The notes beneath the pieces are model-generated. The model had not been told where the DNA came from. It saw only the letters and a list, made by a program, of their open reading frames with translations, and made no database searches. 29,512 bases of DNA from a virus: the IMG/VR virus record IMGVR_UViG_3300042731_003968, positions 1 to 29,512 of that record; one strand, 5' to 3'. Shown in pieces: positions 3-27,646 of the stretch; positions within the stretch are counted from its first letter, which is position 1, and every line of letters begins with the position of its first letter. The translations under genes and the position numbers were made by a program.

Positions 3-263
3 TCGCCGCTGCATTTGGTCCGGGAGGGGATGCCAAAAACTCTGATAATAAATGGCGATGCTGATCGAACGACGACAGCTGAGGTTGCCAGGAAATTCTA
101 TGACGAAATGAAATGGTTTGGCAATTTTGCAATGCTATATATTTACTCTGGACAAAAACACGGATTTTCAAACTATCGAGTAGACGAATGGCCGTGGGGC
201 CATAACCCGCTTTACTATCGAGTGATGCAAGAGGTCCTGGTGTTTTTAAGGAGGTTTGAATGA
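3..263 (+). CDS. Alpha/beta hydrolase (esterase/lipase type), C-terminal part; gene starts before the window
   Basis: The open frame runs in from the left edge without a start codon. It reads SPLHLVREGMPKTLIINGDADRT and ends in a HGF motif followed by YYRVMQEVLVFLRRF. This is the classic end of an acetyl-esterase or BD-FAE-like alpha/beta hydrolase: the Asp in the GDADRT turn and the His of HGF would be the acid and base of the Ser-His-Asp triad; the nucleophile Ser lies outside the window. Such enzymes cleave carboxyl esters, often acetyl groups on sugars. Its stop overlaps the start of the RNase HII gene (ATGA), so the two are probably cotranscribed. A TTG at 15 could serve as a start but would cut into the conserved fold. 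Being in a phage gene string, it may act on host surface glycan esters (inference). Confidence 0.72.
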   Translation, partial: SPLHLVREGMPKTLIINGDADRTTTAEVARKFYDEMKWFGNFAMLYIYSGQKHGFSNYRVDEWPWGHNPLYYRVMQEVLVFLRRFE

Positions 264-1000
264 CGGACTCAGGGCTGATCACGATCGGAATTGACGAGTG
301 CAATTTTTCGCCAAGCCTGGCTGGGCCGTGCGTTGTGTGTGCGCTGATGGCCGTCGAAGAAGTCGGCGGTGTGATGGACTCAAAAAAAACTACAAGGGCC
401 CAGCGCGTCGAGCTGTTCAAAGAGCTCTCGAAAAAATCTCACTACTCTGTGCACATTGCAACGGTCAACGATATCTCAGGGCTCGGAATTTACCAGGCCC
501 GGAACCTGGCGGTCGAGATGGCCGGTCTCTGTCTATTGAAAAAGATACGGTCCAAAGGGTACGGCTGGCCAAACAAGCAGATCATAATCGATGGCCACTT
601 TGCAAAAAAATGGCTGCTACACTATGAGTCGACCTTTACGGTTCCGACGATTTGCATGATTGGCGGGGACTCAAAGGTCTACGAGATATCAGCCGCCTCG
701 ATAGTGGCAAAGGTATATGTGGACATGATATTTGACGGCATGGCCCGCGACTATCCCGGCTATCGCCTGGACAAAAACCACGGATCGCCTGATCCAGAGA
801 TGTATGAAAAGCTGAGATCAGACGGCCCGACACCGTTTCACCGGATCGAGGGATACGGCAAAGAATGGTGGGACAAAATAATGGAGGGAGAATATGTCGA
901 CTTCGGAGAAAACGACTCAAGAGACCCTGGAGGAAAAAGCAAGAGACCTACTCAAAAGGGCTTATTTGGGGAGAAAAAGGACGTCGATGATACGGGCTGA
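260..1000 (+). CDS. Divergent ribonuclease HII-like protein
   Basis: The 246-residue protein has the RNase HII plan: GIDE at 10-13, LAGP at 20-23, DSKK at 40-43, IIIDG at 108-112, then AASIVAKVYVDM at 145-156, YPGY at 165-168 and TPFHR at 191-195. The four acidic catalytic residues expected for cleaving RNA in RNA-DNA hybrids (D12, E13, D111, D155) are all present. Two features that known RNase HII enzymes use to read a single ribonucleotide junction are changed: the GRG loop after the first Asp-Glu is replaced by CNFS, and the tyrosine of the HKGY motif is replaced (NHGS). The last 40 residues are charged and low in complexity and overlap the next gene. ATG at 260 overlaps the hydrolase stop. 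Likely role is removing RNA primers or processing hybrids during phage replication; substrate preference may be altered. Confidence 0.85.
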   Translation: MTDSGLITIGIDECNFSPSLAGPCVVCALMAVEEVGGVMDSKKTTRAQRVELFKELSKKSHYSVHIATVNDISGLGIYQARNLAVEMAGLCLLKKIRSKGYGWPNKQIIIDGHFAKKWLLHYESTFTVPTICMIGGDSKVYEISAASIVAKVYVDMIFDGMARDYPGYRLDKNHGSPDPEMYEKLRSDGPTPFHRIEGYGKEWWDKIMEGEYVDFGENDSRDPGGKSKRPTQKGLFGEKKDVDDTG

Positions 1001-15135: not shown

Positions 15136-15416
15136 CTCTCACGATGAACATGAGAACAGCTTGCTCCTGGTGCCTGATCATCCTGGCGCTAGGGCTCACG
15201 TTTCGGATGATAGTTTGGCCGGTGGTCAGCCCTCAGAAACCTGAGCTCATTTCAAAAACAGAGCTCGTAGAGGCCGGCAAAGTAGAGGGCGGTGCTGATT
15301 CCTATTACAGGTTCCGGGAGGAGGCCGGCGAGTGGGTTAAAATTTTCAAAGAGGCGATCCCGATCCTGACTGTGATCCTGGCGTTCTTTTTGAAAAAGGA
15401 GAAGAAAAAAACTTGA
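15132..15416 (+). CDS. Two-span membrane protein, 94 aa
   Basis: ATG 15132 overlaps the previous stop (ATGA) and follows GGGGAGC. Hydrophobic stretches at about 9-33 (ACSWCLIILALGLTFRMIVW) and at 75-87 (IPILTVILAFFLK), separated by an acidic loop (ELISKTELVEAGKVEGGADS) and closed by KKEKKKT. Basic tail should be cytoplasmic, giving N-in or two-span topology. Size and form would fit a pinholin or holin accessory. Stop overlaps the terminase start. Confidence 0.55.
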   Translation: MTLTMNMRTACSWCLIILALGLTFRMIVWPVVSPQKPELISKTELVEAGKVEGGADSYYRFREEAGEWVKIFKEAIPILTVILAFFLKKEKKKT

Positions 15417-16831
15417 GCGAATTTCCTCACGACGAGCTGCCGGTTGATGCTATCGAGACCGAGAGCATAATACCGACACAGAGACAAGGCGAGGCTTTCG
15501 AGCGGCCCGAACAGTTTATCCTTTATGGCGGAGCGATGGGCGGCGGCAAGTCGACCTGGCTTTGTGCTTATGCCGTCGAGCTCTCGATGCGGTTCCCGGG
15601 GAACGTCGGATTTTTGTGCCGGCACGAATTGAGCTGGCTGAGAAAGACGACGCTTGTCACCCTCATGGAGCATCTGCCGATCGAGCTCATTGCCCAGCAT
15701 CACAAGACAGAAAATTATATAAAATTCAGGAACAAATCCGTCCTCCATTATGGCGGGCTGGGCGATGACAAGAAGGCGATCGACCGGCTGAAGTCGATGG
15801 AGCTGGGATGGTTCGGGATCGACCAGGCCGAGGAGACGAGCGAGAGTTTTTTCTTCATGCTGATGACCAGGCTCAGGCTCCGCGTTCCTGGCATAAAATA
15901 CAAGGGGCTGCTTACTGCAAACCCGCACCCGGGCTGGGTTAAGCAAAGGTTTATCGACCAGGCTCTCCCGGATCATTATTTTGTGCCGGCTTTACCGGAG
16001 GACAATCCCTATTTATCCGAGGACTATGTCCCGAATCTGATGGCAAATCTGCCGGAGGATTTGATCGAGCCCTGGCTGAGAGGGAATTGGGATCACCTGG
16101 CGGAGGTCTCAAATATATATCCGACGCCGATGGTTTTTCAGGCGATGGAGCGCAAGCTGATCCCCGGGCCGTCCGAGGAGGTGTCCTACGGGATCGATGT
16201 CGCTGAGTTTGGCGGGGACGAGACGGTGATCGCCAGGAAAAAAGGTTTTAAGTTTGAGCTCGCAAAGTCCTGGATTCACAAGGACCCGATGGAGGCGGTC
16301 GGCGAATACATCCAGCTCGTAAATTATGACAAGAGAGTCCCGGTGAAAGTAGACGCGATCGGTCCGGGCTCCGGGGTTTTTTACCGGCTCAAAGAGCTGG
16401 GCTTTAACGCCTATGCGATCAAGGGATCGGAAAGGCCCAGCAAAAAGCACAAGGACACATATAAAAATAAAAAGACGGAGCTGTACTTTAACCTCAAGGA
16501 TATGCTGCCTTATGCCGACATCCCGGCAGACGTAAAGCTCCGCAGCCAAATGACCTCGGCCAGGTATCGAATCCTGTCGAACGGGATGATAGCAGTCGAG
16601 TCCAAGAAAGAGCTCCAGCGTCGAAACCAGCCGAGCCCCGACCGGCTCGAGGCTTGCATTTATGCCGCAGCTCAAGTTGGCGTTGACGATTGGGAGGGCG
16701 AAGTTTATCATGCTGGCATGGCCGAGAAATCAGCGGGCCGCGAAAGGCGGCGGCAATTCCAGCTCGAGGAAAATAAAGTCCACAGGGACGAGGAGGACGA
16801 CGATGACATCGGAGAAGTCTTTATCGACTAA
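15413..16831 (+). CDS. terL: Terminase large subunit (ATPase and nuclease)
   Basis: TTG 15413 starts the protein: it overlaps the previous stop and has GGAGAAG before it. Walker A GGAMGGGKST at 39-48, Walker B-like ELGWFGIDQAEE at 130-141, and the coupling motif TAN at 168-170 make the ATP-driven motor. The nuclease domain has D262 (YGIDVAEFGGDET), D314 (KVDAIGPGSGV) and D410 (SPDRLEA), the three acidic residues of the RNase-H-fold. It packs DNA into the prohead together with the portal and the small subunit. At 472 residues it is of normal length. The 29-nt overlap with the portal gene links the two in translation. Confidence 0.95.
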   Translation: MSEFPHDELPVDAIETESIIPTQRQGEAFERPEQFILYGGAMGGGKSTWLCAYAVELSMRFPGNVGFLCRHELSWLRKTTLVTLMEHLPIELIAQHHKTENYIKFRNKSVLHYGGLGDDKKAIDRLKSMELGWFGIDQAEETSESFFFMLMTRLRLRVPGIKYKGLLTANPHPGWVKQRFIDQALPDHYFVPALPEDNPYLSEDYVPNLMANLPEDLIEPWLRGNWDHLAEVSNIYPTPMVFQAMERKLIPGPSEEVSYGIDVAEFGGDETVIARKKGFKFELAKSWIHKDPMEAVGEYIQLVNYDKRVPVKVDAIGPGSGVFYRLKELGFNAYAIKGSERPSKKHKDTYKNKKTELYFNLKDMLPYADIPADVKLRSQMTSARYRILSNGMIAVESKKELQRRNQPSPDRLEACIYAAAQVGVDDWEGEVYHAGMAEKSAGRERRRQFQLEENKVHRDEEDDDDIGEVFID

Positions 16832-18248
16832 AGAAAAACCGGAGGAAGAATTAGGCGAAGTTTTTCACATACAAAAAAAACGTGGAATCTTGAAGGCGAG
16901 CGATCCGCGCCGGTCCGCACAGCTGAAAGAGGAAAAGTATTTGAAAGCTCACGGCCTGATCCCGCATCCTTTCGCAGTATCAAGCCTCATGCTCCTCCAG
17001 GAGAATTGCAGTTTTTTTGATGCCTGTGTTCGGCAGATCGCAGTCGACGTTGTGGGCCAGGGCTGGACAGTCAAGGCATCAGAGGAGTCCGAATCAGATC
17101 AGGACAAAAAAAAGAAGTCCGAGATCGTAAACTTCCTGAAGGACCCGAACGATACAGACGAGGACATCGCCGATATAATCGAGAAAGTGATCATTGACAT
17201 CGGGACAGTCGGCTGGTACGGGATCGAGGTCTCAAAAGAGGGTGACACTGTAAACGGCCTTTGGCAAGTCCCCGCTCACACGATATGGGTTCACGAATCC
17301 AAGGAAAAATATTGCCAGATCAGGGGAACAAAAAAAATGTGGTTTCGGGATTACGGATCAGATATGCCCCTGAGCTCAAAGACAGGCGGGGAGGTAAAGT
17401 CGAACACGGCGCACGAGCTGATCTATGGCCGGCGATACTATCAGGCATCTGACTATTACGGAGCGCCGCCTATACTGCCGGCGGTGGGAGGAGTCCAAGG
17501 TCTCATAGGGATCAGGGACTACAACCTGGCGTTCTTTGAAAACTACGGGGTGCCGGCATCCTTGCTTGTCCTCGAGGGGAGATGGAAAGAGGGCTCGGCC
17601 CGCAAGATCACAAATTTTCTGGACACAGAAATAAAGGGATCATCAAACGCTCACAAGACGCTGGTCCTCAAGCCTCCTCCAGAGGGCAAGGTGGATTGGA
17701 AGAAAATCCAGGAGGCTATCGACGAGGCCGGCTTTAAGGTTTATCTGAAAATCCTGAGAGACGAGGTCCTGGTCTGCTACAAGATGCCGCCATATAGGAT
17801 CGGGATCGCAGAGCTGGGATCGCTGGGCGGATCGACGGCCGTGGAGATGACAAGAATTTATGCCGCCTCGATCATCCAGCCTCTCAAGCGCCAGACCGCC
17901 AGGATGATCACAAAGAAGGTCATCGAGCAAGGTCTCGCGGGAGAGGGATTTGAGTTTGAATGGGGCGAGCTGGATATCCGGGACTACGATGCGATGGTCA
18001 AGCGTTTTCACATCCTGGTATCGATCGGAGCGATGACTCCAAACGAGGCTCGAGTCGAGCTCGGGAAAAAGCCTTACGATGGCGGAGACCAGCACTATGT
18101 CCAATCGAATTATGTGCCGGTCGGAGAGGAGACAGTCCGCAAGATGCGAGACACGCTCGAGGCATCGATCGCTGAGGTCGTGAGAACACTCGACATAAAA
18201 GACGAGGAGCAAAGGAAACTAATCGAGGGAATGATTCCTCGAGAATAA
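16803..18248 (+). CDS. Portal protein
   Basis: ATG 16803 follows GAGGAGG; the frame is open upstream but overlaps the terminase end. The protein of 481 residues shows the portal signature PHPFAVSSLMLLQENCSFFDACVRQIAVDVVGQG near 57-90, then RRYYQASDYYGAPPILPAVG and GIRDYNLAFFENYGVPASLL in the wing and stem, and PPYRIGIAELGSLGGSTAVE in the clip-crown. This fits a PBSX/HK97-type portal that forms a 12-mer ring at one head vertex, docking the terminase. A charged acidic C-terminal helix ends it. Confidence 0.88.
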   Translation: MTSEKSLSTKEKPEEELGEVFHIQKKRGILKASDPRRSAQLKEEKYLKAHGLIPHPFAVSSLMLLQENCSFFDACVRQIAVDVVGQGWTVKASEESESDQDKKKKSEIVNFLKDPNDTDEDIADIIEKVIIDIGTVGWYGIEVSKEGDTVNGLWQVPAHTIWVHESKEKYCQIRGTKKMWFRDYGSDMPLSSKTGGEVKSNTAHELIYGRRYYQASDYYGAPPILPAVGGVQGLIGIRDYNLAFFENYGVPASLLVLEGRWKEGSARKITNFLDTEIKGSSNAHKTLVLKPPPEGKVDWKKIQEAIDEAGFKVYLKILRDEVLVCYKMPPYRIGIAELGSLGGSTAVEMTRIYAASIIQPLKRQTARMITKKVIEQGLAGEGFEFEWGELDIRDYDAMVKRFHILVSIGAMTPNEARVELGKKPYDGGDQHYVQSNYVPVGEETVRKMRDTLEASIAEVVRTLDIKDEEQRKLIEGMIPRE

Positions 18249-18267: not shown

Positions 18268-18576
18268 GTGCCACAAAGCCTTGTATTTCTGAAGGAGCCC
18301 CCGATCACACTAGCGATCAAGGGCGGTGTGGACAACAAAAAATTGAAGGAGTACCAAAAAATCCTGGGGAATTGCATCCTGACGCAAAGCCCGGAGGGAC
18401 TCCACACTCTCGTTACAGTTGACAGGGATGTAAACATCTCTCACATCCGGGAGTGCTCGGATGCAGAGATGGCGAAAATGAGGCAGCAAAAAGAGGAGAT
18501 GGGAAAGCAGCCGGAACAAAGGAGGCTTGTCAGGCCGGAAGTAAAGCCCATGTTCCCGGGAAAAAGGAAGAAGTAA
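18268..18576 (+). CDS. Hypothetical protein, 102 aa
   Basis: GTG 18268 follows GGAGGTGAG. The product is mixed beta and helix: SLVFLKEPPITLAIKGGVDN, EYQKILGNCILTQSPEGLHT, VNISHIRECSDAEMAKMRQQ, then a basic tail with KPMFPGKRKK. Position between portal and MuF gene suggests an internal head or portal accessory protein. Family not recognised. Confidence 0.6.
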   Translation: MPQSLVFLKEPPITLAIKGGVDNKKLKEYQKILGNCILTQSPEGLHTLVTVDRDVNISHIRECSDAEMAKMRQQKEEMGKQPEQRRLVRPEVKPMFPGKRKK

Positions 18577-18580
18577 AACA

Positions 18581-20218
18581 ATGGCGGCGTCGATCGAGAT
18601 CAGGAAAATCCTGGACGGAGTCCTAGAGAAAATCGATCAACCTCGGCGCCGCCAAATTGACTACGCGAAACTTCTTAGGAAAAACCACGAGGCTATGGCA
18701 AAGGCCCAGCGAGAGTTTATGCAATGGCTGGGAGGTCACGCAAGGAAAAGAGTCGGGAAATTGAGAATGGGAACGGCAACCAAGATGGCCGCATCTCTTA
18801 CAGATGATAAGGAAGTGCTTGAGAAAGGCCAGGAATTTTTTATTCGGCCTATGGCCGAGAGTTTTGCCGACGGTTACGAGATGCTCCCCAAGATGGAGAT
18901 AAAAAAAGATTGGACAAAAAATCCCGTGCCGTTTATCGATCGCATCCCCGGGGAACACTACGACGTACATTTTCCCGGGCCGCAGATCGATCCGGTCCTT
19001 GTCCACTCTGTAAACTATGCCAAGTTTTACTCTGCCGAGCTGATCCAAGCTGTTCACGAAACCTTTAAGGGCGCGGTCCGTCGGGTGATCCAGGATGCCA
19101 TAGATCAGAAGTGGGGCCTCTGGAGAATCAAGAAAGAGCTCAATCGAGTTTTGTATCCAGGGAAAGATATGGGAAATTATCTCAATGATCGCCAAACAAA
19201 CTTCCACCACAGGACAAGAATTGAGATGGCTCAGGCCGGATACAGCCAGGATCAGATAGAAAAGTGGAGCACCGCATATATCAAGAAAGCCTGGAAGTAT
19301 AGACTCGAGATGATCGCCAGGACAGAGACGGCAAGATCGGCGACACAAGGGATGCTCAGGGCTTATAGCTACATGGGGATTCAGGCCGTCAAGTGGATCG
19401 CCGATCCTGAGTGCTGCGATGCTTGTGATGAAAAAAACGGCAAGGTTTATTCCGTCAGTCAAATGAGAGAAGTCCCGATGGAGGCGCCTCCACTTCACCC
19501 GAACTGCGAGTGTGTGCTGGTTTATACGGCAGCCGAGCTCCCGAAATCAGAGCGAGGCAGAACGAACATACAAATCGCTGACGATCTCAAAGAAAAGCTG
19601 GGGCTTGAGCGCGTAGAATTTAGGGGCATACTTCCTGATGTGTCTGAGGAAATCTCAGAGCTATTGCAGAAACTTTACAAGCAAATGGAATCCTACCTCG
19701 AGGAAGTCGAGGTCGGCTCGGCTAATGCAAATGCTTATGCCAGCACAGCCTCGTCCGGCGACAGGATCACTTTTGCTGAGGGCTGGTACAACAATCTTGA
19801 CGAGATGCTCGATAAGCTCATTGAGAACATGAGGACAAAGTGGCATCCAAGGATGAAAGAAAAGCACCTCCTCCCCTCCGTCACTCTGCATGAGTTTGTC
19901 CACAGCTCGGGAGCTACTCAATACTGGAAACTAAGAAATAAGAAAACAGAGTTTTGGAACGAGCTCGTCGAGATCATGAGGCCATACTATGACCTCGAGG
20001 ATGAATGGAAGGAACAGGTAGAAATGGGCATGATGACCCATGAACAGTTTGAGAAAAGACTGAGAGAAATCTATCCTTCTGGCTATGCCTTTGAGAGCAC
20101 CGACGAGCTCATTGCTGAGGCGGTGACAGACGCCGTCTACGGAACAGAAACAAAAGAAATGTCAAAAAAAATATATGATTTATGGATAAAGCATTTCTCA
20201 AGAAAGGGCGGAGAGTAA
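18581..20218 (+). CDS. MuF-type head morphogenesis protein fused to a zinc metallopeptidase-like C-terminus
   Basis: Residues about 140-315 hold the Phage_Mu_F (SPP1 gp7-like) domain: RTETARSATQGMLRAYSYMG at 247-266, DPECCDACDEKNGKVYS at 275-291 and PPLHPNCECVLVY at 303-315, with Cys/His residues that may bind zinc. In phages this protein sits in the procapsid near the portal. A second domain follows (about 380-540): NANAYAST, DRITFAEGWYNN, then LHEFVHSSG at 436-444 with the HExxH motif (H437, E438, H441), and DELIAEAVTDAVY at 508-520, where E513 could be the third ligand. This is the layout of MuF-fused zincins known from phage-encoded polymorphic toxins and polyvalent proteins. The protein may be packed into the head and act in the new host (inference). 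The N-terminal 20-130 is helical. Confidence 0.85.
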   Translation: MAASIEIRKILDGVLEKIDQPRRRQIDYAKLLRKNHEAMAKAQREFMQWLGGHARKRVGKLRMGTATKMAASLTDDKEVLEKGQEFFIRPMAESFADGYEMLPKMEIKKDWTKNPVPFIDRIPGEHYDVHFPGPQIDPVLVHSVNYAKFYSAELIQAVHETFKGAVRRVIQDAIDQKWGLWRIKKELNRVLYPGKDMGNYLNDRQTNFHHRTRIEMAQAGYSQDQIEKWSTAYIKKAWKYRLEMIARTETARSATQGMLRAYSYMGIQAVKWIADPECCDACDEKNGKVYSVSQMREVPMEAPPLHPNCECVLVYTAAELPKSERGRTNIQIADDLKEKLGLERVEFRGILPDVSEEISELLQKLYKQMESYLEEVEVGSANANAYASTASSGDRITFAEGWYNNLDEMLDKLIENMRTKWHPRMKEKHLLPSVTLHEFVHSSGATQYWKLRNKKTEFWNELVEIMRPYYDLEDEWKEQVEMGMMTHEQFEKRLREIYPSGYAFESTDELIAEAVTDAVYGTETKEMSKKIYDLWIKHFSRKGGE

Positions 20219-20415
20219 TGCAAACTCACGATCCGATATGCTTTAAGTGTGAGCACTACCTGGGGCTCAGGGGTCTCAGGAAGGGCGGCGGCTTTCAGTG
20301 TCGAGCTTTTCCAGATAGGATTCCACATATAATCTTCGAGACGGGGGATCACTCGGAGCCATTGCCCAAACAAAAAAATAAAATAGTTTTCACTCCAAAG
20401 GGAGGAAAGAAATGA
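20218..20415 (+). CDS. Small conserved-type Cys protein after MuF, 65 aa
   Basis: ATG 20218 overlaps the previous stop (TAATG). Pattern: CFKCEHYLGL, then FQCRAFPDRIPHII, and H-EPLPKQKNKIVFTP. This matches short proteins often found directly after MuF head genes in phages (C-C-HY, C-AFP-GIP, H-P-Q, F-P), which look like a zinc or metal site, of unknown function. It is probably a head or assembly accessory. Stop overlaps the next start (ATGA). Confidence 0.65.
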   Translation: MQTHDPICFKCEHYLGLRGLRKGGGFQCRAFPDRIPHIIFETGDHSEPLPKQKNKIVFTPKGGKK

Positions 20416-20801
20416 GCTGGAAAATAAAGAGAGGGAACACCTCGATCCAAGAAATACCGATCGTTGACAAGGACGGAAATGCAGTCACAAACCTGTCCTC
20501 TGCTGAGGAGATAAAATTTGAGGTCAAGGAATCCCATGACGCTGATCCTTTCATCGAGAAAAGCGCGGACTCAGCTTTTGGCGGAATCCAGGTCGACATG
20601 ACTCAGGATGGAGCGGAGGTCGGCACCTTGATGATCACGGTCCTCCCGGAGGATACAGCCGGCAGCGGAGCTCCTGATCCTGGGAATTATGTAATGGGAT
20701 TGCAGATCAAGTGGAGCGCGACGCTCATTTGGGAGGTCATCCTAAAGATCGACGGGGTCGAAACAAAGACCTTTGAGATCGAGGATGATGTAGTGAAATA
20801 A
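20412..20801 (+). CDS. Ig-like structural protein (BppU N-terminus-like), 129 aa
   Basis: ATG 20412 overlaps the previous stop and follows GGGAGG. It is all beta: WKIKRGNTSIQEIPIVDKDG, VTNLSSAEEIKFEVKESHDA, TLMITVLPEDTAG, PGNYVMGLQIKW and TKTFEIEDDVV. The run of strands with DGNAVTNL and an EDTAG loop resembles the N-terminal domain of baseplate BppU or phage Ig-like decoration proteins. A virion role is likely. Confidence 0.6.
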   Translation: MSWKIKRGNTSIQEIPIVDKDGNAVTNLSSAEEIKFEVKESHDADPFIEKSADSAFGGIQVDMTQDGAEVGTLMITVLPEDTAGSGAPDPGNYVMGLQIKWSATLIWEVILKIDGVETKTFEIEDDVVK

Positions 20802-20962
20802 TGCGGGCAGAGAATGTAGTCGCTGAGGAGAAGTGCCCGAAGTGCGGGTCGGGACTTTATCGAGCCCCGGCTTGCTGCACCTGGAGGCGACGAGGATTTA
20901 AGACGGTCCTTAAATGTGTCCGATCTAAATGCCGGTACAGAATAGGAGAGAGGCGACGATGA
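20801..20962 (+). CDS. Zinc-ribbon mini-protein, 53 aa
   Basis: ATG 20801 overlaps the previous stop (TAATG). CPKCG at 12-16 pairs with CVRSKC at 39-44 for a four-Cys zinc ribbon; CC at 25-26 may help. The rest is very basic (WRRRGFKTVLK, RYRIGERRR), so nucleic-acid binding is likely. No ribosome site is evident beyond the overlap. Stop overlaps the start of the protease gene (ATGA). Confidence 0.6.
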   Translation: MRAENVVAEEKCPKCGSGLYRAPACCTWRRRGFKTVLKCVRSKCRYRIGERRR

Positions 20963-22770
20963 GAATAGAGGAAATAAAACTAAGCAAACTGAAAGAGGTC
21001 TCAAATCGTGAGCTCTATAATTTGCGATTGAGGTTTGTCCAGCTCTGGACAAAAAACTTTCACAACAATAACAGTCAGCAAGTCGGGGAGCTCAAGCGGA
21101 CAGACATGATGAAAAAGTATCGAGCTCTTGCCGGCGAGATGAAGTCTCGCGGATTGAGCTATCTGAAGGAGACCTCAATCGATCGAGCTGTTTTCAAAAA
21201 AGCAATGCTGGGGGTGGACGTGCCCAGCCTCGGAGATCATCTTGTCGCTGAAAATTATGTCTCGATATGTGGCCCGTTTGTGAAAGGCCCAAAGGATTCT
21301 TCTGGCATCGACATCGTGATCCGGGATGTCACGGATAACAGAAACGTCGAGCTGGAAAAGCGCGTAGTAAAGCTGGTGGAAAAAGAGACGGAGAAAGAGG
21401 CTAAGATCACCTATGATCCAGAAGGCCCGCAGTCCGCTTTCATTCCGGTGTTCGATTTGATTCTGAGGACCCGCGACGAGACGAAAAAAATTGATCTGGA
21501 AAAAAAGGGGGCCAGGATAAAAATTGAAAAGCCCGAAGTGACAGACACGCAAGTCCGGGTGCCGGTACGATCTGAAGGATGCGAGGTGACGGCAACCATT
21601 ACGATCTCCGAAGAAAAAGGGATCAAGGCTTTGTACTGCGGGAAAGAGAAAGCGATCCAAACATACCTGTTTGACAAGGACAAATGGACGATGGCTCAGG
21701 CGAAAAAATGGATAAAAGAAAACGGCGAGGCGGCCGCCAAATCAGCCGGCGACAAGGCCAGCGCTGATGGGGCCCATACTAAGACACCCACAAAAAAGGA
21801 TGCTGCCGACGGGAGCAAAGACAAGAAAAGTGGGGACAAAGAGGCGGTCGACTTCTATGTGAAAGTCCTCGAGAAAAGACCTCTAAAAAGCGGGAAATTT
21901 TCCTACACGGTCGGCTATGCTGCCGACGGTGAGACGAGGCCGATTTTCAAGGCTTTCAGCACAAGCCTTGAGGCGGACGTAGGCGCGACTTTAGAGGTGT
22001 CGGCAAAAGAGGTGGTTGCGAAAATAAAAGACGGAAAACTGAAGGTGTCGGTCGCCGGTCCTATCGTTAAAAAAGAGAGCGATGAATGTGTCGACACGGC
22101 CCGGGAAATAGTCGGCCGTGCCCACTCCGCCGGCATCCTGAAGGTCACGGCGTACTTGATCGAGGAGCTCAAAGAGATCGGAGTGCTGGACGAATCCAAG
22201 CACAAAGAGACGAGAAAAAAATTGAGCGAGGCCCAGCGAAAAGAGTGCGATGCTGAAACTGAGAAAATCCGGGAAAACCAAAAGACGGCGAAGTATCCGC
22301 ACAAGTTTAAGCCGGCAAAGTACACTCACCCGAACGGGCACCCGCGCTGTATAATCTGCGGCCAAGAGGAGCTCATTGATTCGGATTGCCAGCCTCCAGA
22401 AAAGCCCTACTTCAAATTCAGCAAGGTCAATAAGAAGGAACAGATCGTGGGGGGCATTGTTTATGCCCCGTCACAGAAAGATGCTCAGGGCGACTTCACG
22501 GATAGGAAAGAGATCGAGCGGGCCATGTATAAATTTATGGAGAAATATGCTGAGGACCCTAAGCGGATCAAGGTCATGCACAAGGGAGAGTCTGTGACGT
22601 TCCCGATCCTTGAGAGTTTTATCCCGGAGCAAGATATCATCAAGGGAGATGACATCATAAAGTCTGGAGCCTGGTGGTTGATGATCAGGATCACCGACCC
22701 TGAAATTTGGGCTGCCGTTGAAAGCGGGCAACTCAATGGCTTTAGCATGGGCGGAACAGCCCGGGCATAA
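20959..22770 (+). CDS. XkdF-type prohead protease with N-terminal nucleotidyltransferase-like and OB-like regions
   Basis: ATG 20959 follows AGGAGAG and overlaps the previous stop. The C-terminal region (about 485-603) fits the XkdF putative serine protease: VNKKEQIVGGIVYAPSQKDA, VMHKGESV with H541, GAWWLMIRITDPEIW and GFSMGG with S596 as the probable nucleophile. The N-terminal 70 residues are helical. Residues 95-190 (AENYVSICGPFVKG, SSGIDIVIRD, ITYDPEGPQS, FIPVFDLILR) look like a pol-beta-type nucleotidyltransferase, in which GIDI replaces the usual DID, so it may be inactive. A KWTMAQAKKWIKENGE stretch, a Lys/Asp-rich linker (261-295) and a beta region (296-370) that may be an OB fold follow. 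A CIIC-type zinc knuckle (464-467) comes before the protease. The protease would process the prohead scaffold. Confidence 0.8.
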   Translation: MRIEEIKLSKLKEVSNRELYNLRLRFVQLWTKNFHNNNSQQVGELKRTDMMKKYRALAGEMKSRGLSYLKETSIDRAVFKKAMLGVDVPSLGDHLVAENYVSICGPFVKGPKDSSGIDIVIRDVTDNRNVELEKRVVKLVEKETEKEAKITYDPEGPQSAFIPVFDLILRTRDETKKIDLEKKGARIKIEKPEVTDTQVRVPVRSEGCEVTATITISEEKGIKALYCGKEKAIQTYLFDKDKWTMAQAKKWIKENGEAAAKSAGDKASADGAHTKTPTKKDAADGSKDKKSGDKEAVDFYVKVLEKRPLKSGKFSYTVGYAADGETRPIFKAFSTSLEADVGATLEVSAKEVVAKIKDGKLKVSVAGPIVKKESDECVDTAREIVGRAHSAGILKVTAYLIEELKEIGVLDESKHKETRKKLSEAQRKECDAETEKIRENQKTAKYPHKFKPAKYTHPNGHPRCIICGQEELIDSDCQPPEKPYFKFSKVNKKEQIVGGIVYAPSQKDAQGDFTDRKEIERAMYKFMEKYAEDPKRIKVMHKGESVTFPILESFIPEQDIIKGDDIIKSGAWWLMIRITDPEIWAAVESGQLNGFSMGGTARA

Positions 22771-22775
22771 TTTAC

Positions 22776-22805
22776 TTGACAAAGGTATTGATATAGATTT
22801 AGATT
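22776..22805 (+). promoter_or_regulatory. Sigma70-type promoter of the scaffold-capsid unit
   Basis: TTGACA at 22776-22781, an 18-bp spacer and TAGATT at 22800-22805 (4 of 6). The 14 bases TTTACTTGACAAAG (22771-22784) are identical to those of the lysis promoter at 4780-4793, with the same 18-bp spacer. It lies right after the protease stop in the largest gap of the head module, so it would boost capsid protein synthesis. Confidence 0.7.
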
Positions 22806-22968
22806 TATAGCGATATGAAAGATTAGCGCAGATCAAGAGTTTGAGGATTGGGGCCGATGCCCTTTCACCATGCTGCGCTCAAGCGCTCAAGACTCGAGAT
22901 GCTGTTTAGGGTTTTGAGTCGCTCCTACCATAGGGGGATTCAAAAATCAGTTTTACGGAGAAAATGTT
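22806..22968 (+). promoter_or_regulatory. Structured 5' leader of the scaffold-capsid mRNA
   Basis: No gene is seen here. AGCGCAG (22825-22831) can pair with CTGCGCT (22873-22879), enclosing a small GGGC/GCCC hairpin (22851-22862); then CTCAAGAC (22886-22893) pairs with GTTTTGAG (22911-22918). The ribosome site ACGGAG stands before ATG 22969. The leader may stabilise the mRNA or be a control site; it is not a recognised riboswitch. Confidence 0.5.
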
Positions 22969-23712
22969 ATGCCGCGAAAGCTGAAAGACATTGATGTGGA
23001 CGAGGTGTCACTCGTGGACGCCGCGGCCAATCTAACAAAATTCTTCATCAAAAAAAGGAGAAAACCTATGGACTTTACCGAATTGCTAAAGGGCTACGTT
23101 CCAGATGACGAGGAGCTGACAGAGGAAAATATTGCAAAGGCTAAAGGTCTCTCAAAGGAAATCCTCACAGAGATCACGGGCGCTTTGAATACGCTGAACA
23201 AGTACAAAGATGATATGCCGTCTGACGTGATAAACGCCATCAAAACACTTGCGAAACGCTCGACCTACGGATACCCCTCCACCGAACAAAAAGAAGTTGA
23301 CTTTGTCGAGGAGCTCGAAACAGTCGAAAAGGCTGGGGCTCGTCTCTCCAAGGCTACGATTGAACAGCTGAAAAAGATCGCTGCTATCATCCAGGGGATG
23401 ATCGGCGAAAGAGAGAAAGGCATCAAGAAAGACAACGACAATATCCCGGATGAAATCGTGAGCGAGCTCGAGGAGCTCCGGCGTTTCAAAAAGGAAAAGG
23501 TCGAGGCCGATGCCGAGCTCGAGAAAAAAGCACAAGAGGATGCTGAGAAAAAGAGAGACGAAAAAATCACTGAGCTTGAAAATGAGATCAAAGAGCTGAA
23601 GAAAAAGAAGGGGCTAAGGAAATCGATCGAGGCACAGGACAATGACGGCGACGGGGACGACGACGGCGACGATGGAAGCAAATGGCCCTCACTTCAATCT
23701 GAGGAGGAATGA
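22969..23712 (+). CDS. Scaffold protein of the prohead
   Basis: ATG 22969 follows ACGGAG. The first 30 residues (KLKDIDVDEVSLVDAAANLT then FFIKK) carry the D-V-EVSLVD-AAN motif that opens scaffold or protease-target proteins next to XkdF-type proteases. The rest is charged and helical with a long coiled coil (about 150-220: SELEELRRFKKEKVEADAEL, KITELENEIKELKKKK) and an acidic Asp/Gly tail. This fits a capsid scaffold cut by the upstream protease. Its end overlaps the capsid gene region (stop at 23710-23712). Confidence 0.75.
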   Translation: MPRKLKDIDVDEVSLVDAAANLTKFFIKKRRKPMDFTELLKGYVPDDEELTEENIAKAKGLSKEILTEITGALNTLNKYKDDMPSDVINAIKTLAKRSTYGYPSTEQKEVDFVEELETVEKAGARLSKATIEQLKKIAAIIQGMIGEREKGIKKDNDNIPDEIVSELEELRRFKKEKVEADAELEKKAQEDAEKKRDEKITELENEIKELKKKKGLRKSIEAQDNDGDGDDDGDDGSKWPSLQSEEE

Positions 23713-23714
23713 GA

Positions 23715-24854
23715 ATGAAAACAACGAAAAAGCTGCTCGAAAAAATGAAGATCAAGAAGGGTTTCCCCTTGATCTCCATGCCGGCTGTTACCCTGACAGA
23801 GGAGGAGGCTGATCGATTCATCGACTATGTGGTCGATGAGAGTGTAATGAAAAGTTATGCTCGCATCGAGAAAATGGGCAAGCCTCAAAAGAACATCCGA
23901 GCGATCGGATTTGGTCAGGGCAACTTCCTGTATCCGGCAAACCACTTCAACGAATCCAAGTACAAAAAGCAATGGGCTCACAACTTGATCCAACTGAGCA
24001 CGGTCAAGATCAGGGGTGCCGTGGTCATCTTTGACGATGACATCGAGGACCTCACCGGGATCATGACCGAGGACCAGTACAACGACAAGGTAATGAGGAT
24101 CATCACTCAGAAGATCGCTCATGAGCTCGAGGATATGTACTGGATGGGAGACACGCACGGTCTCAATTCATTTGCAAGCGATGACATCCGCTCCCTGGTG
24201 GATGGCTGGCGCTATATCATCACACACTCGCAGTCAGGGCAAGACTACTACAATGACGTCTCCGGCGGAGCTCACATTCTAAACGCCTGTGAATGTCAGA
24301 GTGGGGCGGATTGCCCGAGTGCCAGCGATGACCCTGATGCCGTCTTTCGGTATCCTGGCGGAATCATGGAAAGAGCTGCCACGGCTCCCTATGACTACGA
24401 GTGCAAGTACCACAAGATGATCAAATCTATGCCCTCAAAGTACAAGACCAAAAATGGCCTCAAGAACATGAAGTTTCTCAATAGCGATCTTGTGACTCAA
24501 GATTATCTCGAGGCGCTGTCGAACAGAGGCACGGCCCTCGGGGATGCGGTCTATAAGGGCGAGGCGCAGCCGGCCTATGGCAAGGTTGAAATCATGGACG
24601 TACCATTGATGCCAACCGATCTCGGCGCTGACTCGGACGGAACGAATGGTTTGATAGGCGGAGGCTCTTGGGCCGACGTTTTCTTTGGGCCCAAGAATAA
24701 CCTGATCCTCGGAATCCAGCGGGATATCAAGATGGAATCCGAGCGGGTTCCCCGAGACGAGGCGACTTACATCTATTTTTCGATGCGCGTTGCTTGCGCC
24801 ATCGAGAATGTCAACGCCATCGTCTTGACAACTTGCCTCACGCACGAGTGCTGA
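23715..24854 (+). CDS. Major capsid protein, HK97 fold
   Basis: I chose ATG 23715 because GAGGAGG stands seven bases before it; ATG 23709 is in frame but too close. The 379-residue protein has the capsid pattern: LISMPAVTLTEEEADRFIDY, DESVMKSYARIEKMGKPQKN, a VIFDDDIEDLTGIMTEDQYN core, QKIAHELEDMYWMGD spine-like helix, SWADVFFGPKNNLILGIQRD and a EATYIYFSMRVACAIENV end. These are marks of a Siphovirus-type HK97-fold major capsid protein. Direct placement after scaffold and protease, before head-tail proteins, supports the call. Confidence 0.88.
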   Translation: MKTTKKLLEKMKIKKGFPLISMPAVTLTEEEADRFIDYVVDESVMKSYARIEKMGKPQKNIRAIGFGQGNFLYPANHFNESKYKKQWAHNLIQLSTVKIRGAVVIFDDDIEDLTGIMTEDQYNDKVMRIITQKIAHELEDMYWMGDTHGLNSFASDDIRSLVDGWRYIITHSQSGQDYYNDVSGGAHILNACECQSGADCPSASDDPDAVFRYPGGIMERAATAPYDYECKYHKMIKSMPSKYKTKNGLKNMKFLNSDLVTQDYLEALSNRGTALGDAVYKGEAQPAYGKVEIMDVPLMPTDLGADSDGTNGLIGGGSWADVFFGPKNNLILGIQRDIKMESERVPRDEATYIYFSMRVACAIENVNAIVLTTCLTHEC

Positions 24855-25977: not shown

Positions 25978-26604
25978 ATGGGAAACTATATCAATCGGGG
26001 AGACGTCACGAATTGGGCCGTGGGATTAAGCAATGCTGATAAAGACGAGATCATCGCCAGGATCGAGCTCCAGCTCGAGGAGCTGACAAGAGCTCATTTT
26101 TATGCGAAGTCTTTTGATCTCGAGATGAACGGGAATAACAAGAACAGAATATTCCCAGCGCTGCATGGTGACATAATCACCGTCACCGGTCTTTGGATTT
26201 GCGGGATCGAGGCGGATTCGACCTGGTATTATTTCGACACGGATTCTGTTTATCTTGACCTGTGCACCTCGGGTGCTTTCATCGGGGACCCGGAGCTCAG
26301 GTACACTCTTTCCCAGGCGGAGCCTGACGGGCTTTTTCCTCACGGCTACAATAACATCAGGATCACGGGGACCTACGGAAACTCGAGACTTCTTGCGCTG
26401 GCGAAAAGGGCTTGCCAGATCATGATCGAGTTTGAGAACGATAAGAGCACTCACAAGAGACATTTCAAGATGGAGTGGATCGGGAATTACAGGTACGATC
26501 TTCCTGGGGCCGAAGAAGGCGGAATGTTTTATACCGGGATCAGGGAGCTCGACGATCTTATAGGTCAGCTTATGCTTGACACTCCGATCCTGGCGACACC
26601 GTAA
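25978..26604 (+). CDS. Head-tail adaptor or connector protein, 208 aa
   Basis: ATG 25978 follows AAGGAT. The protein begins YINRGDVTNWAVGLSNADKD with helices KDEIIARIELQLEELTRAHF, followed by beta strands FDLEMNGNNKNRIFPA, ITVTGLWICGIEADSTWYYF and a C-terminal helix RLLALAKRACQIMIEFENDK. This mixed helix and strand plan fits the phage gp6 or HK97 gp6-like adaptor family that forms a ring below the portal. The family is inferred from length and place after the decoration gene. Confidence 0.65.
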   Translation: MGNYINRGDVTNWAVGLSNADKDEIIARIELQLEELTRAHFYAKSFDLEMNGNNKNRIFPALHGDIITVTGLWICGIEADSTWYYFDTDSVYLDLCTSGAFIGDPELRYTLSQAEPDGLFPHGYNNIRITGTYGNSRLLALAKRACQIMIEFENDKSTHKRHFKMEWIGNYRYDLPGAEEGGMFYTGIRELDDLIGQLMLDTPILATP

Positions 26605-27305
26605 TGCCGACACTATATAAGAACGCAAGGTTTGAAAACCGCTGGCTTTGGGAGGTCCTTCCTAACGGCTCGTGGTCTGGCCGGCCGTGCGCGATCGTGG
26701 GAGGAGGTCCCAGCTTAAAGGGTTTCGATTGGTCTCGGTTAAAAGGGATCAGGACGATCGGGGTCAACCTAGCGTTTAAGGCGTTTGATCCGACGATTAT
26801 TTTCTCGATGGACACAAGGTTCCTGAAGTGGATCGAGCGCGGGGAGTACGGGCCAGATGTGAGGAAACAGTTTGCTCAGTCCTTGGCTTATAAAGTCTGG
26901 ATGGCAACCTATGTGATAAAAGTGCCGGCAGAATTTTTTCTGATCCGGGTTTACAAGGATTATGCAAGCGGGCTCCGTGCCTTTACGTTTGACATGACTA
27001 AGGGGATAGGTCACGGGAATAACTCAGGGTACGGAGCCCTTAACCTCGCGGCCTGTCTTGGAGCGAATCCGATTTATCTCCTGGGGTTTGACATGATGCA
27101 CCACTATGATGAAACCAACAAAGCAAAGACACACTGGCATGGTGGGCATCCATCTCCACAGCGAGAAAAAACAGTCACGAGTTTTATCCAGCATTTCAAC
27201 CGCGCAGCGCCGATCCTGAAGGAAAAAGGGATCAACGTGATCAACCTTAGTCCGGGATCAGCGCTCACCTGTTTTAAGAAAGCAAAGCCGGAGGAATACC
27301 TATGA
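26604..27305 (+). CDS. DUF115 / MptE-like sugar-modifying protein
   Basis: ATG 26604 overlaps the previous stop (TAATG). CAIVGGGPSLKGFDWSRL at 29-46 (nucleotide-binding loop GGGPSL), IFSMD at 66-70, GHGNNSGYGALNLAACLG at 137-153, YLLGFDM at 158-164 and HWHGGHPS at 177-184 are the marks of the MptE-like DUF115 family, known in motility accessory factors (Maf) that add nonulosonic acids and often in phages. Likely transfers a sugar or sugar-phosphate to a protein or acceptor in the cytoplasm. It opens the carbohydrate cassette and runs into the cupin gene (ATGA). Confidence 0.72.
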   Translation: MPTLYKNARFENRWLWEVLPNGSWSGRPCAIVGGGPSLKGFDWSRLKGIRTIGVNLAFKAFDPTIIFSMDTRFLKWIERGEYGPDVRKQFAQSLAYKVWMATYVIKVPAEFFLIRVYKDYASGLRAFTFDMTKGIGHGNNSGYGALNLAACLGANPIYLLGFDMMHHYDETNKAKTHWHGGHPSPQREKTVTSFIQHFNRAAPILKEKGINVINLSPGSALTCFKKAKPEEYL

Positions 27306-27646
27306 GCGTACAGGGAAAAGTTTGGGGAGAGACCCGCTGTATCTTTCACACAGATACAGTCGCCGTGTATCACCTAAAAATCAAGGATGGCGGATTTTGC
27401 TCAGAGCACATTCACAAGCATAAAAGCAACTTGTTTTATGTCTTGAGCGGAAAGCTCAAGGTTACTCTTTTTTCAGGAGCCGGCAAAGATATCACTGTCT
27501 TAGGGCCCGGCGATAGCTCGGCCGTGCCGCCGGGATTGTATCACAAGTTTGAGGCTCTCGAGGATTGCGAGTGCCTCGAGTTTTACAGGACTTATCTCCA
27601 GGAGCCGGATATCGACCGGCGCACTTTGGGAGGGATCAGGAAGTGA
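27302..27646 (+). CDS. Cupin-domain protein
   Basis: ATG 27302 follows GGAGG. Cupin motif 1: CSEHIHKHKSNLFYVLSG with H36 and H38 (the usual Glu is replaced by Asn43); motif 2: GPGDSSAVPPGLYHKF with P76, G78 and H81. It is a small single-domain cupin like those used in sugar epimerisation or isomerisation or metal-bound dioxygenases. Placed between DUF115 and glycosyltransferase genes, with overlapping stops, it is probably a sugar-processing enzyme or sensor. Confidence 0.8.
   Translation: MSVQGKVWGETRCIFHTDTVAVYHLKIKDGGFCSEHIHKHKSNLFYVLSGKLKVTLFSGAGKDITVLGPGDSSAVPPGLYHKFEALEDCECLEFYRTYLQEPDIDRRTLGGIRK

Follow-up and report, generated by a model that had tools for sequence, protein, structure and literature searches.

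The gene at positions 18581-20218 of a viral DNA fragment encodes a MuF head protein whose C-terminal domain was shown, at the level of sequence comparison, to share common descent with a wide family of MuF-zincins. The fragment, hereafter called the window, is a 29,512-base IMG/VR virus record of ~51% GC. A fusion of a MuF protein to a zincin-like metallopeptidase domain had been proposed in a first-pass annotation, and it is borne out by family profiles, a held-out profile, conserved motifs and the fold of a relative. The window protein is a divergent new member of the already described MuF-metallopeptidase group, not a new kind of system. New here are the M34-type assignment, which comes through a relative modelled with confidence, the correction of the active-site residues, a second carrier family (Phage_min_cap2) and an apparent exchange of the zincin subtype where the MuF part is conserved.

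The ORF on the plus strand is open throughout from ATG to stop and codes for 545 aa. It is flanked by the portal gene on one side and by the protease and capsid genes on the other, and the gene order terminase-portal-MuF-capsid is present in the window. The features of this region are:

15413-16831, terminase of the standard head cluster
16662-18248 (+), portal protein (PF04860, 2.2e-29), adjoining the MuF gene
18268-18576, small ORF between the portal gene and the MuF-zincin gene
18581-20218 (+), MuF-zincin fusion protein of 545 aa (ORF and family profiles)
19238-19519 (+), MuF/SPP1 gp7-like core, residues 220-313 (PF04233, TIGR01641)
19568-20215 (+), predicted C-terminal M34-like zincin domain, about residues 330-545 (held-out profile, alignment A5, fold of an aligned relative)
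19889-19903 (+), HEFVH active-site motif, residues 437-441 (H437, E438 and H441 invariant in 26 sequences)
20084-20086 (+), Y502, nearly invariant (residue alignment to the solved chain 2l0r)
20105-20119 (+), E509-LIA-E513 (both glutamates invariant in 26 sequences; E509 is the predicted third zinc ligand)
20412-20801, 129-aa ORF directly after the MuF-zincin gene
22414-22764 (+), S78_2/XkdF-type prohead protease domain, residues 496-612 of the ORF 20929-22770 (PF14550, 1.7e-25)
22969-23712, ORF between the protease-containing ORF and the capsid-like ORF
23709-24854 (+), major capsid-like protein (phrog_1623, 2.4e-47; PF05065 weak, 0.0011)

The MuF core was significant in three libraries (Pfam, PHROG and NCBIfam). 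PF04233 matched residues 220-313 (E 6.4e-10, 40.2 bits against a curated cut-off of 29.6) and TIGR01641 of NCBIfam matched residues 219-314 (E 1e-13, 51.6 bits against a cut-off of 39.65), in agreement with the earlier placement of the end of the Phage_Mu_F core near residue 315. Additionally, phrog_115 ('minor head protein') matched the protein with 3.7e-18, as did several other PHROG head families. The core carries the motifs CDAC (279-282) and HPNC (306-309). To our knowledge, SPP1 gp7 has no zincin extension. The window protein resembles SPP1 gp7 in its MuF core and in its gene position, and the portal, which is encoded next to it here, is the partner of the MuF protein in SPP1 (PMC6316719).

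Predicted active site and fold of the C-terminal domain

None of the Pfam or NCBIfam models covers the C-terminal domain, and a tblastn search with the C-terminus found no relative in annotated phages and plasmids. Direct searches of Pfam, NCBIfam, PHROG and PDB sequences with the C-terminus gave matches at chance level only, among them Dbr1_C, SHOCT and the CamA methyltransferase, and these were rejected. With Pfam ATLF (PF07737), no match was obtained for the window protein; the relative L030 reached 21.9 bits compared to a gathering cut-off of 27.4. A separate C-terminal region with an HExxH at residues 437-441 had been described before, and HEFVH is indeed found there, with support from the held-out profile for the region around it. 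This is the only HExxH in the 25,191 residues of the six-frame window ORFs (at least 60 aa). An HExxH alone occurred in 1.8% of the shuffles of the domain, and an HExxH together with E[hyd][hyd]AE near the observed spacing occurred in 0 of 20,000.

The first relatives were retrieved from viral contigs with a DNA pattern consisting of HExxH, a gap of 186-216 bases and E[hyd]x[hyd]AEA, searched in CAC-start and CAT-start halves. From the two halves, 20 and 35 stretches were obtained; of the 20 in the first half, 18 had an open frame through the motif and belonged mostly to large phage proteins. Since these relatives were found by the motif, the relationship was tested beyond it. A profile was built from 17 relatives with the window protein left out. 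With this held-out profile, the window C-terminus scored 39.3 bits (E 3e-11 at Z=1000), compared to 12.0 bits for the best of 2000 shuffles and at most ~4 bits for other window ORFs. The segment 320-434, which lies upstream of the motif and played no part in the retrieving pattern, scored 16.6-18.1 bits, compared to at most 8.9 bits in 1000 shuffles.

Active-site residues were assigned from an alignment of 26 sequences (A5), in which the relatives are 12-25% identical to the window protein. In the early alignments A1 and A4 the HExxH of the window protein was misplaced; with more sequences, all motifs share one column. No variation is seen at H437, E438, H441, E509, A512, E513 and A514, and hardly any at Y502. 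Residues 502-515 read YAFESTDELIAEAV, with ELIAEAV starting at residue 509. The HExxH helix of the window protein is followed by a Y-x6-E helix, in the same register as in the solved chain 2l0r. In the residue alignment, the E509 column of the profile falls on the zinc-binding glutamate of lethal factor, which is Glu735 and binds zinc together with His686 and His690 (PMC5668564). The seven residues from Y502 to E509 are the same spacing as from the M34 tyrosine to the zinc-ligand glutamate. Because E509 aligns with lethal-factor Glu735 at tyrosine + 7, we infer that H437, H441 and E509 are the zinc ligands, and E438 is the predicted base. The first-pass annotation had named E513 as the key glutamate. 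This residue is conserved, being invariant in the 26 sequences and placed one turn after E509 on the same helix, but as a zinc ligand it was rejected, since the M34 alignment puts the ligand at E509 (Y502 + 7).

That the catalytic residues are invariant across 26 diverged relatives is what one would expect if the enzyme is active. The divergence of the window protein and its failure to match any curated zincin model could instead point to a relic that is no longer catalytic and has a structural role. We regard this as highly improbable, since no catalytic position, Y502 included, has been lost as the rest of the domain diverged.

Structure prediction, which had been put forward as a check, gave a confident M34-type zincin for the aligned domain of a relative, but the window domain's own model was poor (pLDDT 61.7, pTM 0.55). 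Fold matches of the latter were rejected as helix-bundle noise. With the window protein in the alignment, the domain of the relative L025 was modelled with a pLDDT of 94.1 and a pTM of 0.90, with a layout of helix, three strands, HExxH helix and glutamate helix. Comparison by VIA-align resulted in a Z of 12.2 for the lethal-factor catalytic domain (3.8 Å over 176 residues) and of ~7 for the PPEP enzymes. We take both of these to be M34-type zincins, and the model allows the L025 domain to be assigned to the same type with high confidence. Foldseek alone against the PDB gave no E below 0.001 for this model; its top row was lethal factor (prob 0.82). In a viral structure library, the best matches of the L025 model were phage proteins named minor capsid, MuF-like and lethal factor. 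Searched by sequence, the profile hit the catalytic core of lethal factor (7.5e-4) and, in the solved structure 9sfn, an internal virion protein (9.9e-4), and the zincin profile also matched the virion RNA polymerase family (phrog_2206). The likeness to MEROPS M34 (lethal-factor catalytic domain, PPEP-1/-2/-3) thus lies in the fold of the aligned relative and in the HExxH...Y-x6-E arrangement. Differences from these M34 enzymes are the low identity of ~14%, the absence of lethal-factor targeting domains and the failure of Pfam ATLF to match the window protein.

Carriers and relatives of the domain

In viral contigs, no close relative of the whole window protein, of its C-terminus or of its portal was found. 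The pattern search recovered a MuF protein with the same C-terminal zincin (L007/L011, PF04233 5.6e-16) and a Phage_min_cap2 protein with the same zincin at its C-terminus (L018:3120-4961, minus strand, PF06152 1.9e-96). Alignment-based searches of viral contigs added further MuF-zincins (L024-L030). In L028 and L029, the same zincin is fused to Phage_min_cap2 (PF06152), another minor capsid family. Matches in genomes came from Sporomusa, Propionispora, Alistipes, other Bacteroidales, a Nitrospinaceae bacterium and a Gastranaerophilales bacterium. Many of the relatives are MuF or Phage_min_cap2 fusions from phages or prophages of Bacillota, Bacteroidota, Nitrospinota and others, and their zincin sits in head modules of different types. 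Many unrelated phages have a head protein with a zinc-protease tail; in random samples such relatives are infrequent, with 4 in 398 genomes of the Sporomusa phylum. A carrier that is not MuF as far as seen was observed on a genome contig of Bacillus sp. PS06 (L038:2-4276, plus strand), where at least 1425 aa comprise long acidic repeats and then the same zincin at the end.

The MuF parts of L024/L025 and L091/L092 are 74-79% identical, and their zincins, which are only 29-40% identical, represent two subtypes. As judged from these identities, the zincin subtype appears to have been exchanged behind the conserved MuF parts, which fits a variable payload. The exchange was seen between L024/L025 and L091/L092; for the window protein's own lineage, no close relative was found.

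The combination of a MuF core with a C-terminal enzymatic domain, as present in the window protein, is the layout of MuF polymorphic toxins. Variable C-terminal enzymatic domains on MuF proteins, zincins among them, had been cited as known in the earlier annotation, in line with two surveys (PMC5576092, PMC5512222). Jamet et al. described MuF polymorphic toxins of temperate phages in 2017, with a metallopeptidase domain in 20% of 191 putative toxins (PMC5576092). The window protein shares with these toxins the N-terminal MuF core, the variable C-terminal enzymatic domain and the place next to the portal. On the other hand, it is known from a 29.5-kb fragment, its C-terminal domain has diverged beyond the reach of present Pfam and NCBIfam models, and no immunity-like gene was recognised beside it. 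A family match was looked for with the 129-aa ORF 20412-20801 and none was found. By eye, this ORF has the look of a beta-rich structural domain rather than of an immunity protein. According to Iyer et al. (2017), no domain is commoner in phage polyvalent proteins than the zincin (PMC5512222). The window domain resembles these zincins, including that of the N4 virion RNA polymerase, in the HExxH helix and glutamate helix, in virion-associated carriers and in being profile-related. The window protein is a simple two-part MuF fusion, whereas the polyvalent proteins, with zincins of 12 clades, are giant and multidomain.

Proposed role of the fused zincin

Our preferred reading, which we consider probable to a modest degree, is that the domain is a virion-carried protease that is ejected and acts in the host. 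The MuF part would bind the portal and bring a few copies into the procapsid, as is established for SPP1 gp7, which the portal directs to the inside of the procapsid and which aids the start of infection (PMC6316719). H437, H441 and E509 would hold the zinc, with E438 as the general base and Y502 in the site. The zincin would be carried in the virion and leave with the DNA. In the host, it may cut one or a few proteins early in infection, which might bias the infection or remove a defence. The MuF core beside the portal counts for a portal-targeted, virion-carried zincin, and the fusion of the same domain to Phage_min_cap2 likewise counts for carriage in the virion. The matches to the internal virion protein of 9sfn and to the virion RNA polymerase family count for an ejected protease; the virion RNA polymerase of N4 has an HExxH domain and is known to be ejected (PMC12633501). 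Two toxin activities, ADP-ribosylation and alarmone synthesis, have been shown for MuF fusions, and those with ADP-ribosyltransferase or alarmone-synthetase tails are antibacterial when expressed (PMC11699363). Counting against this reading, our literature search found no experiment on a MuF-zincin or MuF-protease, the window domain's own model is poor and no immunity-like gene was recognised beside the fusion gene.

Alternatively, the zincin might act in particle assembly by cutting the MuF protein itself, the scaffold or other head proteins, in maturation or autoprocessing. Iyer et al. propose pre-packaging autoproteolysis for the P1 DdrB zincin (PMC5512222), actinophages are annotated with fused MuF-like and capsid maturation protease genes (PMC7302621), and one of the phage proteins hit by the zincin fold in the viral structure library bears the name capsid maturation protease. 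Additionally, in the loci of five relatives the genes that follow were matched to scaffold and/or capsid families with no protease among the genes searched, so processing during assembly is possible in general. On the other hand, a protease of the S78_2/XkdF type is already encoded in the window where one is usually found, two genes before the capsid gene. The fused zincin is therefore not needed for the usual maturation step and would not be the sole maturation protease of the window phage. 'Capsid maturation protease' as its main role was rejected because of this separate domain (PF14550) in the ORF 20929-22770. An outside target that changes also explains the swap of subtypes on conserved MuF parts better than a fixed role in assembly would. 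We judge a role in assembly to be rather unlikely. Of the two options given in the first-pass annotation, injected effector and capsid maturation, the latter is the weaker, since a separate S78_2/XkdF protease is present and since, among the relatives, the domain occurs in differing types of head module.

It is also conceivable that the zincin only frees itself by cutting the linker after ejection, with MuF staying at the portal and without a host target. Autoproteolytic release by zincins is documented or proposed in polyvalent proteins and injection systems (PMC5512222). However, no payload lies C-terminal to the zincin, and in polymorphic toxins it is the toxin peptidases that are C-terminal, with processing peptidases upstream (PMC3482391), which makes mere self-release very unlikely in our view.

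Going beyond the preferred reading of an ejected protease, the window protein might found a distinct, diverged lineage of M34-like proteases that are packaged in the head and cut a specific host target, a proposal to which we give little credence at present. If it were true, the target could, for instance, be a defence protein that is cleaved in the opening minutes of infection. The window protein would then be a protease equivalent of injected anti-defence proteins, with portal-bound MuF as its carrier. MuF proteins with enzymatic tails represent a widespread, little-tested delivery route, in which the DNA may be accompanied into the cell by a head protein located at the portal. The predicted catalytic residues (E438 as base, E509 as ligand, and Y502) and the cultured carriers (prophages of Sporomusa and Propionispora) make the question of effector versus maturation testable.

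Other genes of the window

Among the families matched in the subset of window ORFs searched, no integrase was noticed. In the 613-aa product of the ORF 20929-22770, about the last 115 residues form the S78_2/XkdF protease (PF14550), and residues 1-490 are without a PHROG match. This ORF contains VSICGPFVKGPKDSSGIDIVIRD followed by FDLIL, which we take to resemble a Pol-beta nucleotidyltransferase signature. The family phrog_3017 (head maturation protease) matches two ORFs within window positions 20929-23712 in swapped order, with its positions 42-153 on the end of the ORF 20929-22770 and its positions 1-39 on the start of the ORF 22969-23712. This arrangement suggests a split or rearranged protease-scaffold unit. 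At window positions 260-1000, a phage-encoded ribonuclease HII was observed (PF01351, 1.7e-17), with ~30% identical copies in a few phage records. Two adjacent genes at 26604-27646 match phrog_4603 (alpha-2,3-sialyltransferase, 1.5e-31) and phrog_7851 (cysteine dioxygenase, 1e-14).
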